From: Stigmatella ashevillena
Lineage (GTDB): Bacteria > Myxococcota > Myxococcia > Myxococcales > Myxococcaceae
Assembly: GCF_028368975.1 (NCBI RefSeq)
Contig: NZ_JAQNDM010000002.1
Location: forward strand, 1,240,001 to 1,304,000
Length of the DNA stretch: 64,000 nt
Reading direction: 5' to 3'
The stretch's first letter is position 1. Each line of letters starts with the position of its first letter. The position numbers were made by a program, and so were the translations under genes. Shown here one piece after another: positions 26,922 through 55,960 of the stretch. Under the pieces are notes generated by a model. It saw only the letters and a list, made by a program, of their open reading frames with translations, did no database searches and had not been told where the DNA came from.

Positions 26922-27998
26922 ATGATCCCCCTGCCCCTGTTGGTCCTTGGACTCGCCGCCACGTCGCCCACCGCTGCTCCTTCCACGGCCGAGCAGCTTC
27001 ACGCGGTGTGTCAAACCCATGCCCAGGAGCCCGGCACCCCCTGGGCCCTCGCCCATGGAATCACCCTGGAGGGCCGTGACTTCCGCGCGCGAGATGGGCG
27101 CCGCGCCGTGGACGTCATCGTCTCGGACTTCTTGCGCCGGGACGCGGCCCCGGGAGGCCGGGGACTGTTCTTCGAGCCTTCCACCCCCCAGGGCCAGCCC
27201 GTGGCGCCCCACCCCGCCCTGTTGGAGAAGACGCTGGTGCTGGCCGGTGTCCCGCTGGGCCGGAAGTTCCAGACGGACGAGGGCCCGGTGACCCTGAAGC
27301 ACTTGGTGGAGGCACTCCAGCGCACCTTCCGCCCCGCCCTCGCGTCCTCTGCCGAGGGGGCTTGGACGCTCGATGCGCTGGGCCATGTCCTCACGCCCGG
27401 GGCATCCTTCCAGAACGGTGCGGGAGAGACCGTGCGCATCGACGCGGTGATGGACGAGGCGCTCGTCACCCTGGAGCGGGCACAGTCGGAGCTCGCCGAG
27501 GGCATGAAGGCGGGCCTGCCCCAGGTCCCCAAACGCAAGCAGGGCATCTACACGCACCCGTGCGGAGGGCTGCACTTCTTCCAAGCGGTGGCGAGCTGGG
27601 CACGCCACCCCGCCGTGCGCCGGGCGTGGGGCGGACGGCTGGAGGCCCAGGTGGACGTGCTCCTCTACCGGCTGGGCTCGGAGGCCCGTCAGTACGAGGC
27701 CGCGCTGGCCACGGCCCCCCAACACCGGCTGGCGCTGCTCTCCCAGTCGCTCAAGTTCTACGGCCACTTTCTGGAGACGCTCGGGCGCTACCGGAAGGAG
27801 AACGGCTGGCGCCCCTCCGCCTCGCAGCAGCGCGCCGTGGTGCGCGCCCACCAGTTGCTGGAGGCCACGGTCCGCAGGCTCGGCGAGGCCCAAGCCTTCC
27901 AGCGAATGCCCACGCTGGCCCGGGAAGAGCCCCAGCTCTTCTGGGATCTCCTCGGGGATTCCTGCCATGCGGCGCATGGCCTCGACCTCTGGAAGTAG
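26922..27998 (+). CDS. Secreted protein of unknown function
   Basis: 358 residues with a short signal peptide (LPLLVLGLAATSPTAAPS). Blocks that look conserved are THPCGGLHFFQAVASWARHP and the C-terminal FWDLLGDSCHAAHGLDLW, which place Cys and His residues that could bind a metal or haem (CHAAH resembles but is not a CxxCH haem site). Mostly helical. I do not recognise the family. Convergent with the FAAL gene. Confidence 0.68.
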   Translation: MIPLPLLVLGLAATSPTAAPSTAEQLHAVCQTHAQEPGTPWALAHGITLEGRDFRARDGRRAVDVIVSDFLRRDAAPGGRGLFFEPSTPQGQPVAPHPALLEKTLVLAGVPLGRKFQTDEGPVTLKHLVEALQRTFRPALASSAEGAWTLDALGHVLTPGASFQNGAGETVRIDAVMDEALVTLERAQSELAEGMKAGLPQVPKRKQGIYTHPCGGLHFFQAVASWARHPAVRRAWGGRLEAQVDVLLYRLGSEARQYEAALATAPQHRLALLSQSLKFYGHFLETLGRYRKENGWRPSASQQRAVVRAHQLLEATVRRLGEAQAFQRMPTLAREEPQLFWDLLGDSCHAAHGLDLWK

Positions 27999-28008
27999 TC
28001 CGAAGGCG

Positions 28009-28032
28009 TCCGCCGACTCAGGACGGCGGACG
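28009..28032. terminator. Hairpin overlapping the FAAL stop codon
   Basis: GTCCGCCG (28009-28016), an 8-base loop, CGGCGGAC (28025-28032): a perfect 8-bp stem whose loop contains the FAAL stop codon (28018-28020). It lies 11 bases after the convergent gene's stop, so one element may end both transcripts. Confidence 0.6.
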
Positions 28033-29769
28033 GGGCCACACCCCCGCGACGAGGCGGTCCTTTCCCTGGCGCAGCCACGCAACACCGGACTGGAGCCACC
28101 GCTCCCCCCACTGCCGCACCTCGAGCACCGAGCCCAGGACAAGCCGCCGGGCCCGGAGCTTCAGCAGATCCACGCGCAGATCCCCCGGGGTGGCCACGCG
28201 GATGTGCCCCTGCTCATAGGCCTCGGTGATGGCCCGGCGCTGCAACTTGCCGCTGCTCGTCTTGGGAAGCTGCCCATAGCGGATGAACAGCACATCCTCC
28301 GGCGCCACGGTGACCCCCATCGCCTCCAAAATCGTGGAGGCCACCTGCCGCTGCCCCACGGCCCTCTGTTCCAACACCTCCGGGTGGCTCACCTCGGCCA
28401 GCACCACCACGCGCCCCTGGGCCTGGATGACCGCCGACCTGCCGGACCGGATGAACGCCAGGCGCTCGATGGCCTGCTCGAAGTCACTGGAGAAGTAGCT
28501 CTGGCCGTTGATCTTGATCCGATCATTGAGGCGGCCGGTGATGAACAGCTCCCCCCCCTGCATGAAGCCCAGGTCTCCCGTGGGGTAGAACCCCTCCTCG
28601 CCGCGCAGGGGACGCTCGTCCGCATAGTACGCCTGCGCCAGACTCCCGCTCCGCAGCTCGATCTGGCCCAGCTCGCGCTCCTCACTCACGCGGCCCTCCT
28701 CGGTCCGCAGCCGCACCTCGAACTCGCTCAGCGGACGCCCCACGGAGATGGCCGGTTGTCCGTTGGGGCCCGTGACCGTGCGCCACCCCTCGTCCCCCAC
28801 ACACGAGACCATCAACACCACCTCGGCCATGCCGTAGCAGGGTTTGATGGCCTCCCGCCGCAAGCCCTGGGGGGCGAGCAGCGCCGTGAAGCGCTCCAGG
28901 TTGGCGATGTTGATGGGCTCGCTGCCCAGGTAGACGGTCCGCAGCGCCGACAGCGCCAACTCCTGCAATTCCTCGGGCCCGAGTCCGTTCAGGATCTTCA
29001 GCGTGTAATCGATCGCGAAGTTCGGAATGACGGCCAGGGTGGCGCGGTGCTCGGACAAGAACTCCAGCCAGCCCATCGGATCCATGAGGAAGCTCATGGG
29101 CGGGGTGAGGAGGCTGTCACAGTGGCCCTCCATGCACGCCAGCATCCCGCCCACCAACCCCATGTCGTGGTACAGCGGCAGCCAGCTCACGCACCGGTCC
29201 TGGGCGCACAGCCCTCCCTGGTTCTGGATCATCCGCAGGTTGGCGTGGAGGTTGCGCCAGGTGATGGGCACCCCTTTCGGAAAAGCCGTCGAGCCCGATG
29301 AGAACTGCACGAAGGCCAGCGCGTCCTCGTCGGGCACCCGTGGGAGCGCTCCCGCCAGACGCGCGCCGGCGGGCGGCAGCGGCACACGAACCAGCGACAG
29401 CTCCAAGGAGCGAAGGCTCGGCACGTCCAGGATGTGGCTCACCCCATGGCGCGAGGACAGGCGCGACAGGAAGTCCCGGTAGGCGGCCTTGGGCGTGCTG
29501 AGAATGAAGGGCTTCACCGAGAACGGCACCGCCCCCAACGCCATCAGCCCGAAGAAGGAGAGGATGACGGCCTCGGAGGTCTCGAACGGAAACAGGATCC
29601 GGTCCCCGGGCCGGATCCCCTGGGCCCGGAAGTGCTCCGCGCTGGCGGCGATCCGCTCCGGCATCGCCCGGTAGGCCAGGAACGAGGGCCGGGAACCAAA
29701 ATCCTCGAACAAATGCAGGCCACGCTCGGGATTCGCCGCCGCGAGCCGCTCGAAGAGGGTATCGGACAT
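28018..29769 (-). CDS. Fatty-acyl-AMP ligase (FAAL)
   Basis: 583 residues of the adenylate-forming family, FAAL branch. The P-loop is FVQFSSGSTAFPKGV, the adenine/aromatic segment LGSEPINIANLERF, then PCYGMAEVVLMVS, and the hinge region TGDLGFMQGGELFITGRLNDRIKI (split here) with the C-terminal Lys in TSSGKLQRR. FAALs activate free fatty acids as acyl-AMP and load an ACP instead of CoA. It is the last gene of a four-gene operon with an ACP, a desaturase and a thioesterase, so that ACP is the likely acceptor. Fifteen bases separate it from the thioesterase. Confidence 0.9.
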   Translation of the reverse strand: MSDTLFERLAAANPERGLHLFEDFGSRPSFLAYRAMPERIAASAEHFRAQGIRPGDRILFPFETSEAVILSFFGLMALGAVPFSVKPFILSTPKAAYRDFLSRLSSRHGVSHILDVPSLRSLELSLVRVPLPPAGARLAGALPRVPDEDALAFVQFSSGSTAFPKGVPITWRNLHANLRMIQNQGGLCAQDRCVSWLPLYHDMGLVGGMLACMEGHCDSLLTPPMSFLMDPMGWLEFLSEHRATLAVIPNFAIDYTLKILNGLGPEELQELALSALRTVYLGSEPINIANLERFTALLAPQGLRREAIKPCYGMAEVVLMVSCVGDEGWRTVTGPNGQPAISVGRPLSEFEVRLRTEEGRVSEERELGQIELRSGSLAQAYYADERPLRGEEGFYPTGDLGFMQGGELFITGRLNDRIKINGQSYFSSDFEQAIERLAFIRSGRSAVIQAQGRVVVLAEVSHPEVLEQRAVGQRQVASTILEAMGVTVAPEDVLFIRYGQLPKTSSGKLQRRAITEAYEQGHIRVATPGDLRVDLLKLRARRLVLGSVLEVRQWGERWLQSGVAWLRQGKDRLVAGVWPRPPS

Positions 29770-29784
29770 GGGGCCTCGTCCTGC

Positions 29785-30213
29785 TCAAGAAGAACTGACA
29801 CGTGACGCCGCCAGGAACTCCTGGAGCGAACACAAGGCACGGCTCTCCGCGTGGACGAAGGCCGCTTGCACCCGGGCCTCCACCGCCAGCCGCGTCCCGG
29901 AGTCGATGAGGATCTGCTGGTGGAAGCGGGCCCGGTAGTGAAGCGCCTCCGGGTCCTTCAGCTCCTCCTCGAGGGGGAACTCCAAGCGGGTGTGGACCAC
30001 CACCTCCTGCGGGGAGATCTCCTTGCGGTAGTCCACTTCGATGCGCAGGGTCAGCGCCACGACCTGGGACACCTTGCGCAGCGCGTTGCGCTCCATCCAT
30101 GCCCAGCGGCCCGCCTCCAGGTACTCCAGGGCGGTGGCGTTGTTCACATGGCCGAGGCTGTCCAGATCATTGGGCCGGACCCGCAACGTCAGCACGGACT
30201 CTTCGAAGCGCAC
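29785..30213 (-). CDS. Hotdog-fold acyl-CoA/acyl-ACP thioesterase (4HBT type)
   Basis: 142 residues of the 4-hydroxybenzoyl-CoA thioesterase/FadM-like group: VRPNDLDSLGHVNNATALEYLEA contains the catalytic Asp and the HVNN turn (quoted in part), followed by the central strand LRIEVDYRKEISPQE. GTG 30213 comes three bases after the desaturase stop, so translation is coupled. In this operon it would release the modified acyl chain from the ACP. Confidence 0.88.
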   Translation of the reverse strand: MRFEESVLTLRVRPNDLDSLGHVNNATALEYLEAGRWAWMERNALRKVSQVVALTLRIEVDYRKEISPQEVVVHTRLEFPLEEELKDPEALHYRARFHQQILIDSGTRLAVEARVQAAFVHAESRALCSLQEFLAASRVSSS

Positions 30214-30216
30214 GGC

Positions 30217-31215
30217 TCAACACCCCACCAGATCCATCCAGGTGTCCTCCACCTCCTCGGCGGAGGCACAGGCCACCCCGGTAATGCGCCGGAGCGAGTG
30301 CAGGATGAGCGAACGCTTGCGATCCAACGCCTCGGGCGCCGCGGCCGCCTGGCCCGCTTCGCTCTCGAGGTGATCCCACCAGTTGATGTGCGTGCCCCGG
30401 TCCTCCACGTGCTCACGCGCGCTGCCGTACAGCTCGCCCTCTTCGCGCAGGAAGAAGTGGGCCACGGCGAAGGCTTCCTTGGCGGGGTAGGCCCCACTGT
30501 CCACCAGCGCCTTGGCGAACGAGATGAAGTACTGCATGTGCTGCACCTCGTCGGCCCCCACGTGCTTGAACAGCATCTTGAGGCCGGGGTCCGAGACCTG
30601 GCGCATGTACTGACCGTAATTGACCGAGGCGATGCTCTCGGAAAACGCCAGCATCGTCACCGTGCGCAGCAGATCATCGTCCGGAAAAACCTTCCGGTAC
30701 TCGATGACCGCGTCATCACTGAGCGGCTCGAAGCCCGCGAGCATGGCCAACTGCGTGAAGCTGGTCTCGTGGTGCGCCTCCTCCTCGTTCCAGTAGCGGC
30801 TCCAGGTGCCGAGCGCCTGGACGATGGAGGCCACCACGCTGTCCTTGCCCACCCAGCGCCGACACTCCTTGTCGGCCAGCCGCGCCATGCGGTCCGCGCT
30901 CGGCTTGGCGGTCATCTCCGCCTTCCCGGCGCTCCAGACCACGAACCGGTCCTTCTCGGTGAGCTGCTCCAGGCAGACGGACTCCACCAGCGCGGTGGCG
31001 CTCCAGCGGCGCGCCTCGTGAAGCCGGTGCTGATCCCAGGTGATGTCCACCAGCCGCCGGCCCTCCTCCTTGAACGCCCGGTAGAGATCCGCCACCACCG
31101 TGGGGCGCCGGGGCGGGGCCAGCTCCGCGGGGCTCTCCACCAGCCCCGACATCCGCACGAGCGCGTCTTCCAGCGAAACGGGTTTGAGGAGCCCGTGCTC
31201 ACGAACGGTGGCCAT
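30217..31215 (-). CDS. Soluble di-iron acyl-ACP desaturase-like protein
   Basis: 332 residues, all-helical ferritin-like protein. Iron-ligand motifs match the plant-type acyl-ACP desaturase family in order and spacing: RYWNEEEAHHE (E146, H149), AFSESIASVNYG (E193) and GADEVQHMQYF (E223, H226). The first-helix Glu cannot be placed with confidence. Members insert a double bond into ACP-bound acyl chains using O2 and ferredoxin. ATG 31215 overlaps the ACP stop codon (TGATG), directly tying it to its probable substrate carrier. A longer start at 31239 would overlap further. Amine N-oxygenase (AurF-like) chemistry is the main alternative. Confidence 0.8.
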   Translation of the reverse strand: MATVREHGLLKPVSLEDALVRMSGLVESPAELAPPRRPTVVADLYRAFKEEGRRLVDITWDQHRLHEARRWSATALVESVCLEQLTEKDRFVVWSAGKAEMTAKPSADRMARLADKECRRWVGKDSVVASIVQALGTWSRYWNEEEAHHETSFTQLAMLAGFEPLSDDAVIEYRKVFPDDDLLRTVTMLAFSESIASVNYGQYMRQVSDPGLKMLFKHVGADEVQHMQYFISFAKALVDSGAYPAKEAFAVAHFFLREEGELYGSAREHVEDRGTHINWWDHLESEAGQAAAAPEALDRKRSLILHSLRRITGVACASAEEVEDTWMDLVGC

Positions 31216-31505
31216 CAAACGGGCCTCCCCTGCTGGCACTCCTGGACGAACAGATCCACAACCTGAGAGATAGGAGTATCCAGAGAAAGGGCCGGAAGCC
31301 GGACTCGGATCGCGTACTGCTTGCGCAGGGCATTGGAGGACTTCGCGAACGCCTCCATCAGGTCCACGCTGTTGGTCATCCGGTCCGAGCGGGCGATGAC
31401 CTCCGCCAGGGTGAGATCCGCGCCGAACAGTTCCTCGGCCTTCAACCCCACGTTCTCGCAGAACTTCTGGCAGATGAAGTCCTTCAACTCGCCGACATCA
31501 GCCAT
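31215..31505 (-). CDS. Acyl carrier protein, divergent
   Basis: 96 residues with ACP spacing. The phosphopantetheine site is probably Ser46 in MTNSVDLMEAF (usual DSLDLVELI). Helix I (LKDFICQKFCENVGL) has two cysteines, unusual for an ACP. ATG 31505 follows GGGAGGT. First gene of the ACP-desaturase-thioesterase-FAAL operon, overlapping the desaturase start. Dedicated carriers like this hold one acyl substrate for tailoring. Identification is by motif and context, as overall similarity to housekeeping AcpP is low. Confidence 0.78.
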   Translation of the reverse strand: MADVGELKDFICQKFCENVGLKAEELFGADLTLAEVIARSDRMTNSVDLMEAFAKSSNALRKQYAIRVRLPALSLDTPISQVVDLFVQECQQGRPV

Positions 31506-31626
31506 CTGATGACCTCCCTGGCGTTGACGGGCGATAGGATTACCGTCCCGCTGAAAACCTCAGCCAGCTCGAAAGTCCCAGCCAAGGGCTACCTGGTCCG
31601 TAGGCTCAGGAGGCTTTCTCAAATCC

Positions 31627-32838
31627 TTATGAAACATCTTCGGAATCATGGGAGACAACAGGAATAATGATTTTCAGCCGCAGCATCTCTTCGGCGCTGA
31701 AACCGGCCTCCGCGAGGATCTCCCGCGAGTGCTGACCCAGCCCGGGAGGCGGCCGCAGCGGCGTGGGACCCATCCGCAAGGGGGTCAACAGGTGGGTCAC
31801 TCTGCGTCCACGCTGCGCGTCATCGGCCTCCACGAAGAGTCCGCGCGCCTGGAGCTGCGGGTCCTTCCATACCTCATCTCCCTCGAGGACCGGTTCGATG
31901 CACAGGTCCGTGCCCGCGAAGCGCTCCTGCCAGTAGGCCAGGGGGTGCTCGGCGAAGAGGCGCGCCAGCTCGGCCTTCACGCGCGCGCCGGCCTCTGCCG
32001 TGTCGTATCCGTCCGCGAAGAGGTCCATCCGCCCCAGCCGCTCGCACAGGCCCGAGAAGAACTTGGGCTCCAGCGCGCCCACCGCCAGCCACCGGTCGTC
32101 CTGGGTGCGGTAGAGGCCGTAGCACGCGTAGCCGCCATTGAGCGCCTCTCGCCCGCGCTGAAGGGGCGCCCCCTGCTCTCCCATGATGAGCCGGGAGGCC
32201 AGGTGCATGTGCAGAAAGGCCAGCGTCCCATCCGTCATGGAGACATCGACGAGGCGCCCCCGTCCGGTGCGCTCGCGCTCGTGGAGCGCCGCGAGAATGC
32301 CCACCAGCGCGAAGAGGCTCCCGCCGCCAATGTCCCCCATCTGCACGCCGGGAAAGGCGGGCGCTCCGCCCGCTTCGCCTCCGTACGCGAGCACCCCGGC
32401 GCGCGCCGCGTAGTTGAGATCGTGCCCCGCCTTGAGCCGATCCGGCCCCGTCTGGCCGTACCCGGAGATGGCGCAGTAGATGAGGCGCGGATTCTCCGCC
32501 CGGAGCACCGCCTCGCCCAGGCCCAGCTTGTCCATGACGCCCGGCCGGAAGCTCTCCACCAGCACGTCGTAGCCGCGCACCAGCCGCTTGAGCGCCTCGC
32601 GTCCCGCGGGGGACTTGAGATCGAGCGTCAGTGAGCGCTTGTTGCGGTTGAGCCCGTAGAAGAGCGCGCTCTCTCCCTCGCGCAGGGGCGGCATCTGCCG
32701 GATGTAGTCCCCTCCTTCGGGCTCCTCCACCTTGTCCACGGTGGCGCCCAGGTCCGCGAGGACGAGCGTGGCATAGGGGCCCGGCAGCAGCCGCGAGAGG
32801 TCCAACACCTTGAGGCCGGAGAGGGGGAGCGTGTCCAT
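31627..32838 (-). CDS. CaiB/BaiF family CoA-transferase, alpha-methylacyl-CoA racemase-like
   Basis: 403 residues, family III CoA-transferase fold: LKVLDLSRLLPGPYATLVLADLGA at the start (quoted in part as LSRLLPGPYATLVL), the RNKRSLTLDLK strand, and active-site segments GHDLNYAARAG (His), DVSMTDGTLAFL (Asp) and GALEPKFF (Glu). This His/Asp/Glu set is that of alpha-methylacyl-CoA racemase, which interconverts 2-methylacyl-CoA epimers, rather than of a true CoA-transferase. It lies 121 bp upstream of the ACP operon on the same strand and may belong to the same lipid pathway. Confidence 0.87.
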   Translation of the reverse strand: MDTLPLSGLKVLDLSRLLPGPYATLVLADLGATVDKVEEPEGGDYIRQMPPLREGESALFYGLNRNKRSLTLDLKSPAGREALKRLVRGYDVLVESFRPGVMDKLGLGEAVLRAENPRLIYCAISGYGQTGPDRLKAGHDLNYAARAGVLAYGGEAGGAPAFPGVQMGDIGGGSLFALVGILAALHERERTGRGRLVDVSMTDGTLAFLHMHLASRLIMGEQGAPLQRGREALNGGYACYGLYRTQDDRWLAVGALEPKFFSGLCERLGRMDLFADGYDTAEAGARVKAELARLFAEHPLAYWQERFAGTDLCIEPVLEGDEVWKDPQLQARGLFVEADDAQRGRRVTHLLTPLRMGPTPLRPPPGLGQHSREILAEAGFSAEEMLRLKIIIPVVSHDSEDVS

Positions 32839-55609: not shown

Positions 55610-55960
55610 CTACTGGCCGGTCTCCGGCTTCGGTACCTTCTTCATGAACGGCATCATGAGCCGCTCCACGGGTTTGCCCCCCAGCAGGTGCTCTTCGACG
55701 ATGGTGGACACATCCTCCGTCTTCACCCCGCCGTACCAGATGCCTTCCGGGTAGACGACGACCGAGACCCCCATCGCGCACGTGTCGATGCAGCCGGCGG
55801 CGTTGGCCCGCATCTGTCCTTTGATGCCGCGCTTCTCCATCTCGCTCTTGAAGGCGGCTCGGACTTCCTCGCCTCCCTTCGTGGCGCAGCACCCCTTCGG
55901 GTGGCCATCGGGACGGCGGTTGGTACAGACGAAGACGTGCCTTTGGAAGGGAGGTGCCAT
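55610..55960 (-). CDS. Thioredoxin-like [2Fe-2S] ferredoxin
   Basis: 116 residues. Cluster ligands are C12 (HVFVCTNRR), C24/C25 (HPKGCC), C57 and C61 (AAGCIDTCAMG), giving the C-x11-C and C-x3-C pattern of thioredoxin-fold ferredoxins, as in Aquifex/Clostridium types. VVVYPEGIWYGGVKTED is the typical following strand. Soluble electron carrier; partner unknown. Confidence 0.92.
   Translation of the reverse strand: MAPPFQRHVFVCTNRRPDGHPKGCCATKGGEEVRAAFKSEMEKRGIKGQMRANAAGCIDTCAMGVSVVVYPEGIWYGGVKTEDVSTIVEEHLLGGKPVERLMMPFMKKVPKPETGQ

Follow-up and report, generated by a model that had tools for sequence, protein, structure and literature searches.

The bacterial polyyne clusters (caryoynencin, collimonin, cepacin, ergoyne and protegencin), which occur in several bacterial groups, combine a fatty-acyl-AMP ligase (FAAL) with a stand-alone acyl carrier protein (ACP), desaturases and a thioesterase (TE), and they contain three desaturases (searched as IPR005804) and a rubredoxin (PMC8406139). 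In the JamABC triad, according to PMC11837247, the FAAL loads a dedicated ACP and the desaturase acts on the acyl-ACP. The CylC-type dimetal-carboxylate halogenases, as presented in PMC8406957, act on a fatty-acid-derived chain, are found in clusters with fatty-acid activating enzymes and have been reported almost exclusively from cyanobacteria. Here, we describe a set of genes with a comparable logic in a 64,000-nucleotide stretch of the Stigmatella ashevillena genome (contig NZ_JAQNDM010000002.1, positions 1,240,001 to 1,304,000; "the window" below means this whole stretch), a genome of two contigs and 10,951,030 bases. Four adjoining genes in the window encode a divergent ACP, a soluble di-iron oxidase, a hotdog TE and a FAAL, and we consider it probable that they represent a self-contained, horizontally spread cassette that tethers a free fatty acid to a carrier protein of its own and modifies it there. 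In window coordinates, the four genes are:

31215..31505, minus strand: divergent ACP, 96 aa, predicted phosphopantetheine serine Ser46 (from the motif N-S-[VI]-D-L-M-E, an AF2 model and a fold search)
30217..31215, minus strand: soluble di-iron oxidase, 332 aa, predicted ligands E100, E146/H149, E193 and E223/H226 (from residue conservation, a DesA2 profile match and an AF2 model)
29785..30213, minus strand: hotdog TE, 142 aa, GTG start, YbgC/FadM-like, with an invariant D16-x-D18..G21-H-V-N24 (4HBT_2)
28018..29769, minus strand: FAAL, 583 aa, with an invariant K508 in TSSGKL (AMP-binding and DIP2-like C-terminal domains)

An earlier note on this DNA had described four adjoining genes at 28018-31505, and our analysis confirmed them as minus-strand open reading frames (ORFs), including the overlap by one base of the ACP stop and the oxidase ATG (TGATG); the oxidase and TE genes are separated by 3 nt, and the TE and FAAL genes by 15 nt. 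Pairwise comparison with three close relatives gave dN/dS values of 0.02-0.28 for all four genes, which are under purifying selection.

The cassette is widespread. The ACP-oxidase pair was found at 43 distinct loci (window counted), accompanied by a FAAL in 41 and by a TE in 41 of them. A phosphopantetheinyl transferase (PPTase) gene lies between oxidase and TE at 33 of the 43 loci, and an alpha/beta hydrolase gene lies between TE and FAAL at 23. The linked PPTase is AcpS-type (PF01648; the two scanned examples gave E 4e-8 and 1e-11), and the hydrolase matches Hydrolase_4 (E 8.5e-13 in the one example scanned). The hosts are Myxococcaceae, Streptomyces, Frankia, Saccharothrix, Catellatospora, two Nostoc plasmids and one Xenorhabdus plasmid; in other words, the order ACP-oxidase-(PPTase)-TE-(hydrolase)-FAAL is found in Myxococcota, Actinomycetota, Cyanobacteriota and Gammaproteobacteria, a recurrence across four phyla that far exceeds chance. 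All six genes are present at 21 of the 43 loci, two of which have the ACP-oxidase pair doubled (L002, L063); 11 loci have ACP-oxidase-PPTase-TE-FAAL; two (L024, L058) have ACP-oxidase-TE-hydrolase-FAAL; and six have the four-gene form ACP-oxidase-TE-FAAL, namely the window, its same-genus relatives L056, L057 and L059, and the Frankia loci L014 and L023. The remaining single loci are ACP-oxidase only (L004), a contig that ends after the TE (L013) and FAAL-ACP-oxidase-PPTase (L025). At this last locus, from a deltaproteobacterial metagenome-assembled genome (MAG), the oxidase frame is open and lacks the stretch around the second ExxH, through either deletion or assembly error. The earlier note had held that a gene order unique to this genome would speak against its proposal; the order was found in other Myxococcota and far beyond, at 42 further distinct loci. 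The self-contained unit of FAAL, ACP, oxidase and TE that it had proposed is likewise supported, with the amendment that the usual cassette has five to six genes, of which the four seen here are what is left in a reduced version.

For this tally, 46 rows were cut to 43, as L061, L062 and L065 are duplicates of L004, L002 and L003, and L089 was counted as ACP-bearing by hand, since BLAST missed an ACP that is readable in translation. Some loci, from the same or additional genomes, span about 4 kb and cannot contain all the genes (L001, L027-L049, L071, L076-L082); they were kept outside the tally, and weak matches (L050-L055, L072-L075, L083-L086) were not considered members. The 43 loci are not independent cases, because two collections may have supplied the same species more than once, and many of the loci come from closely related Corallococcus.

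Searches with the oxidase show how unevenly the cassette is distributed. A scan of a species-level collection returned 25 loci, in Hyalangium, Citreicoccus, Corallococcus, unnamed Myxococcaceae, Frankia, Streptomyces, Saccharothrix, Catellatospora and the deltaproteobacterial MAG. Among 195 Myxococcota genomes, 31 matched at E ≤ 1e-3, comprising 24 strong matches (E below 1e-100) and seven weak ferritin-like ones; by genus, the strong matches cover 7/7 genomes of the window's genus and 2/2, 14/16 and 1/1 in three others, denominators that rely on the genome handles being grouped by genus. The oxidase of one same-genus relative is 94% identical to that of the window. In 295 Streptomyces genomes there were 12 matches: three orthologs (59-60% identical; one of these genomes is the center of the sample), five of a distant form (34-35% in this search) and four weak ones. 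The five distant loci, with oxidases 33-35% identical, still have ACP-oxidase-PPTase-TE-FAAL. At the phylum level, five of 396 Actinomycetota genomes matched, strongly only in the center genome of the sample and at E 9e-5 to 8e-4 in the other four. Finally, three of 72,556 plasmid records carry the cassette oxidase: pNsp_b of Nostoc sp. ATCC 53789 and p057_K of Nostoc sp. C057, both typed conjugative and with the oxidase annotated "acyl-ACP desaturase", and, as the third, a plasmid of Xenorhabdus sp. TH1 that is typed non-mobilizable and whose oxidase is annotated "hypothetical protein".

Ordinary ACPs have D-S-L at the phosphopantetheine serine. In the cassette ACP, all 20 members aligned share N45 and S46, and the distant Streptomyces form has N-S-I-D. 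The AF2 model of the window ACP (pLDDT 87.1) places the start of a helix (46-64) at Ser46. When this model was compared to solved structures with VIA-align, 40 of the 50 chains listed were carrier proteins or carrier-containing enzymes by title. The best carrier row was 8z5e_C (Z 8.2, root-mean-square deviation (rmsd) 2.7, 74 residues aligned), below two FtsHi complex chains whose titles are silent on carriers (Z 8.9 and 8.5), and small helical bundles are known to produce Z values as high as these. Foldseek gave weak matches (best E 0.28). The predicted structure is consistent with a carrier-protein fold with a modifiable serine at the start of helix II, and the altered motif at Ser46, taken together with the dedicated PPTase, suggests that this is a private carrier.

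For the oxidase, we assigned metal ligands by pattern, using an alignment of 18 chosen oxidases from which L025 was left out. The predicted ligands E100, E146/H149, E193 and E223/H226 are invariant in all 18, in the order E, ExxH, E, ExxH, which we take to be that of di-iron carboxylate proteins, the ligands of the castor desaturase presumably being arranged likewise. The best match in a profile search of the Protein Data Bank (PDB) was DesA2 (1za0, E 2.9e-5), and the Pfam family FA_desaturase_2 (PF03405) was matched by 17 of the 18 oxidases at E ≤ 1 (best E 7.5e-6), with the window protein scoring 13.1 bits, below the curated cut-off of 22.7. The AF2 model, built from 25 sequences, reached pLDDT 80.6. 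In Foldseek its top nine rows were plant acyl-ACP desaturases at a probability of 1.00, but with a best E of 6.6e-3 and TM scores below 0.5. VIA-align placed R2lox 7qbp first (Z 16.9, rmsd 4.1, 226 aligned), followed by desaturases (16.6, rmsd 3.9, 235 aligned) and VlmB (16.2, rmsd 3.3, 230 aligned), so that Z values of 16.9-16.1 tie R2lox, desaturases, an aldehyde-deformylating protein and the AurF-like VlmB. The earlier note had spoken of a plant-type soluble desaturase, which is overstated given a sub-threshold sequence match and a fold that ties with R2lox, stearoyl-ACP desaturase and VlmB. From its profile matches and predicted fold, we read the enzyme as distantly related to the soluble acyl-ACP desaturases, and for the same reasons desaturation should be taken as one of several possible oxidations.

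Two candidate families were considered more closely. The NCBIfam R2lox model was matched by only two of the 18 oxidases (best E 0.0086). The earlier note had also named a grouping with AurF oxygenases as an outcome that would count against it, and this did not occur: AurF is absent from the nine Pfam families listed for the 18 oxidases at E ≤ 1. AurF-type N-oxygenases have one more His ligand, located four residues ahead of the Glu in their last ExxH; the corresponding position is V or I in all 18 oxidases. With no Pfam match and the extra His missing, an AurF-like N-oxygenase was rejected. A broader alternative is that the di-iron enzyme acts on the acyl-ACP as a hydroxylase, a halogenase (CylC being the functional parallel) or a carbon-carbon-cleaving oxidase. 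The low Pfam score and the structural ties with R2lox and VlmB speak for it, the DesA2 profile match and the near-universal contact with FA_desaturase_2 speak for a desaturase, and we consider the alternative quite possible, if short of an even chance.

The other two window proteins are more readily classified. The TE matches 4HBT_2 at E 2e-15, and the FAAL matches AMP-binding at E 7e-44 and a DIP2-like C-terminal domain at E 5e-13. The best solved matches of the FAAL include 3pbk, FadD32 and FadD23, ahead of acyl-CoA ligases, and its top three chains are titled "Polyketide synthase"; its best NCBIfam models are PRK07768 and PRK09192, both FAAL and both below cut-off. Its motifs are invariant in 16 of 16 members. 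By these comparisons, the window ligase is judged nearer to FAALs than to acyl-CoA ligases.

In 12 actinobacterial loci, the alpha/beta hydrolase (L015, L016, L018, L020, L022, L024, L026) and a crotonase-type gene (ECH_1; L013, L014, L019, L021, L023) are mutually exclusive. The crotonase-type gene lies directly behind the FAAL gene in L019, L021 and L023, and upstream on the opposite strand in L013 and L014; it was found at no locus besides these five, and the window cassette has neither gene. Their mutual exclusion hints that they perform exchangeable late steps. The effective number of cases is smaller than 12, because the L013 contig stops short of where a hydrolase gene would lie, and this locus and L014 are nearly identical copies from Frankia. 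A putative PPTase remnant before the TE in these two loci (VDGSRR) was rejected, as its codons overlap the conserved oxidase end in another frame.

Beyond the observed gene content and order, their conservation, the intact ligand residues and catalytic motifs, and the presence or absence of the cassette at one chromosomal site (see below), we infer from the sequences the charging and loading of the ACP, the oxidation and its position, the release of a free acid and the electron source. The FAAL would activate a fatty acid with ATP and load it onto the divergent ACP, at the phosphopantetheine arm on Ser46. This acyl-ACP would be docked by the soluble di-iron oxidase, which would oxidize the chain using O2, with a general ferredoxin supplying the electrons; desaturation appears about as probable as all other oxidations together, and hydroxylation about as probable as the remainder. 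The hotdog TE would free the product. At most loci, the in-cassette AcpS-type PPTase would charge the ACP; as the window operon has no PPTase gene, another PPTase of the cell would have to do so here. A separate observation concerns an ORF at 55610-55960 of the window (minus strand), about 24 kb from the operon, which resembles a 2Fe-2S ferredoxin by translation and may be a conceivable electron donor.

Several points weigh against this proposal. Pfam PP-binding was matched by none of the 20 ACP members at E ≤ 1, and a profile search of the ACP against the PDB returned no carrier protein; the match between oxidase and desaturases is weak, and the comparison of predicted folds leaves desaturases, R2lox and AurF-like enzymes unseparated. 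Because the oxidase falls below its Pfam cut-off and the ACP has no Pfam match, the labels of both rest on motifs, predicted folds and conservation. One of the 25 oxidase homologs aligned, that of L025, lacks the E223/H226 stretch, and the cassette contains no electron donor gene. None of the three PPTase genes in the window's genome is a clear ortholog of the cassette PPTase. As the cassette lies within larger clusters in some Streptomyces, its product may be handed on there rather than freed.

These larger gene settings are of two kinds. Five loci in Streptomyces and Saccharothrix (L015, L016, L018, L019, L021) adjoin a divergent second AMP-ligase and an acyl-CoA dehydrogenase, joined in L015 by a cytochrome P450. 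A ThiS-like gene is present in L018 (by Pfam) and in L019 and L021 (by translation), a 278-aa protein of unknown function in L015, L018 and L019, and an exporter in L015 (by Pfam) and L019 (by translation); the divergent cluster beside these five loci is possibly a biosynthetic cluster of a new type. The distant Streptomyces form (L087-L094) adjoins genes for an aminotransferase, an FMN-dependent hydroxy acid dehydrogenase, an AMP-ligase, a PPTase and an ACP (by Pfam), and, by translation alone, ketosynthase-, PhyH- and hydroxymandelate-synthase-like genes. The cassette might accordingly be a supplier of starter units, in which the acyl chain passes, as in JamABC, from the ACP to a distant polyketide synthase (PKS), nonribosomal peptide synthetase (NRPS) or acyltransferase, and the TE does no more than proof-read or recycle blocked ACP. 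Apart from both gene settings, this idea gains from the statement in PMC11837247 that FAALs serve especially in the assembly of polyketides and nonribosomal peptides. Against it, a TE is present at nearly all loci, and in 15 Myxococcaceae loci the cassette is set between two resident genes. No PKS or NRPS was seen in the 64 kb window, judged by ORF size alone and without a Pfam search of the longest called ORF (1440 aa, its start resembling a response regulator). The absence of PKS/NRPS genes nearby, asserted in the earlier note, therefore holds for the window by ORF size, but not in full elsewhere, as some Streptomyces copies adjoin further acyl-activating genes. We consider starter supply unlikely, and the release of a modified free fatty acid remains our preferred reading.

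The chromosomal site of the cassette bears on this choice as well. The features that bound the operon in the window are:

31506..31626, minus strand: 121-bp gap upstream of the ACP gene, putative promoter region of the operon
31627..32838, minus strand: CaiB/CoA-transferase III gene, upstream boundary, outside the cassette (PF02515, E 7e-109)
26922..27998, plus strand: convergent downstream boundary gene (ORF 26922, an ORF call), 358 aa, outside the cassette

The ORF 26922 protein is conserved in Myxococcaceae, and searches of Pfam and NCBIfam gave no significant match for it. In all 15 Myxococcaceae carriers measured, the stops of the convergent CaiB-like gene and ORF 26922 are 3.6-7.4 kb apart, with the cassette lying between them; L004/L061, L058 and L064 have a cassette without an adjoining CaiB-like gene, that is, outside this site. 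Among the cassette-less Myxococcaceae tested, 13 of 13 have the CaiB-like gene and 11 of 13 have ORF 26922. In two such genomes of the Corallococcus group (G084, G090) the stops of the two genes are 12 and 81 bp apart, and in eight of eight genomes tested from two other genera 27-36 kb separate the genes; among the three genomes left, one has the two genes on different contigs and two have no ORF 26922. The insert between them holds type I PKS genes in G061 (by Pfam) and ORFs of 3015 and 2571 aa in G093 that are PKS-like by translation alone. Since the interval is empty, holds the cassette or holds an insert of 27-36 kb (with PKS genes in G061), it is a site at which Myxococcaceae swap clusters for lipids or polyketides.

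Besides the CaiB-type CoA transferase, the vicinity in the window holds an SCP2-like protein and an acyl-CoA dehydrogenase (by Pfam). Such neighbors would suit a role in lipid salvage or repair, in which the cassette removes or mends unusual or damaged fatty acids and no metabolite is made, as would the crotonase-type gene of those actinobacteria in which the hydrolase is missing. Yet the CaiB-like gene and ORF 26922 persist without the cassette, whether close together or far apart, and a distribution as patchy as three orthologs in 295 Streptomyces genomes suits accessory metabolism. We regard salvage as quite improbable, and continue with a cassette that makes a modified fatty acid.

What sets the window apart is its reduced form, as its operon has neither the PPTase nor the alpha/beta hydrolase. 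The genome has three PF01648 genes, of which one alone matches a Streptomyces cassette PPTase, weakly (33% over 66 residues, E 0.002), and its best hydrolase match is partial (38%). Of the two Hyalangium oxidases, the first forms a group with the window protein and G099 in the oxidase tree (support 100/100), and the stem of this group measures 0.63 changes per site; the second Hyalangium copy stands apart. Considering this long stem together with the two missing genes, the lineage of the window seems to have retained a diverged ACP-oxidase pair and lost two genes. In the same genus, G095 has an additional, unlinked cassette of the other type (L058). The oxidase and FAAL trees agree on the large groups, that is, the distant Streptomyces form (100/100), the actinobacterial versus the myxobacterial rows, and a Nostoc-Xenorhabdus-MAG group, whose rows are long and whose join may be false; the oxidase bootstrap is unsettled, and the trees leave 11 and 8 inner branches open. 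They conflict in one place, where the FAAL of Hyalangium joins that of the second G095 set, whereas its first oxidase groups with the window. We read this as a doubling of the ACP-oxidase pair, yet it remains a conflict. That the window genes are chance neighbors or a decayed, non-functional remnant, as the two missing genes might suggest, is almost certainly wrong in view of an order conserved across phyla, the low dN/dS values and the intact motifs.

A bolder version of our reading is possible, although we would sooner doubt than assert it. In this version, the cassette is a mobile orthogonal system, with an ACP too divergent for an ordinary PPTase and a new branch of di-iron enzymes whose reaction is not a delta-9-type desaturation, and its products in myxobacteria, actinomycetes, cyanobacteria and Xenorhabdus would be identical or related oxidized lipids. 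In the Stigmatella group, an ACP-oxidase pair that arose by duplication and changed faster would have taken over the operon, and the hydrolase and crotonase would mark alternative last steps.

If the proposed function is true, four phyla share a compact machine that remodels a free fatty acid without a fatty acid synthase, PKS or NRPS, and the membrane-desaturase route that leads to alkynes and polyynes has a soluble di-iron counterpart. It would offer a ready cassette for oxidized fatty acids, and its private ACP/PPTase pair would be useful in engineering. With an empty site in close relatives and cultured hosts, the question is directly testable. Our literature search found no description of the cassette, which is weak evidence of novelty, as its coverage of subscription journals was thin. 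Two candidates from the literature were dropped: the imidacins, Stigmatella-specific lipids made by a type I PKS pathway with an S-adenosylmethionine-dependent cyclopropane step (PMC11301661), and akazaoxime, whose di-iron oxygenase is tied to NRPS-bound glycine (PMC9967187).

We conclude that the cassette is real, widespread and apparently undescribed; its logic is that of alkyne and polyyne cassettes, from which it differs in its soluble oxidase, its ACP and its PPTase. Among described proteins, R2lox gave the highest structural Z (16.9), tied with desaturases; we take it to share the oxidase's ligand pattern, and to our knowledge it is not linked to ACP or FAAL genes. The soluble acyl-ACP desaturases (castor stearoyl-ACP desaturase and Mycobacterium tuberculosis DesA2; PF03405) are alike in their soluble helical di-iron build, their E/ExxH/E/ExxH ligands and the expected acyl-ACP substrate, but the window oxidase falls below their Pfam cut-off and would use a private ACP instead of that of fatty acid synthase. 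The likeness to CylC, compared by description alone, is that of a di-metal enzyme on a fatty-acid-derived chain, the CylC product being chlorinated (cylindrocyclophane biosynthesis). Unlike the cassette, the JamABC triad, whose desaturase is presumably of the membrane type, has no TE and no PPTase and feeds a PKS/NRPS. The polyyne clusters are alike in FAAL, stand-alone ACP and TE, and their carrier-bound desaturation parallels the oxidation proposed here; IPR005804, the entry used for their desaturases, we take to be the membrane type, and the sole oxidase of the window operon is a ferritin-like protein rather than a membrane-type fatty acid desaturase. None of the four window genes encodes a rubredoxin, the search having covered these genes and not the rest of the genome. 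The earlier note had seen the TE as setting the cassette apart from known systems, but the bacterial polyyne clusters, as described in PMC8406139, have one too. What distinguishes the cassette from them is a single soluble ferritin-like di-iron enzyme, an NS[VI]D ACP unmatched by PP-binding and, usually, a dedicated PPTase.

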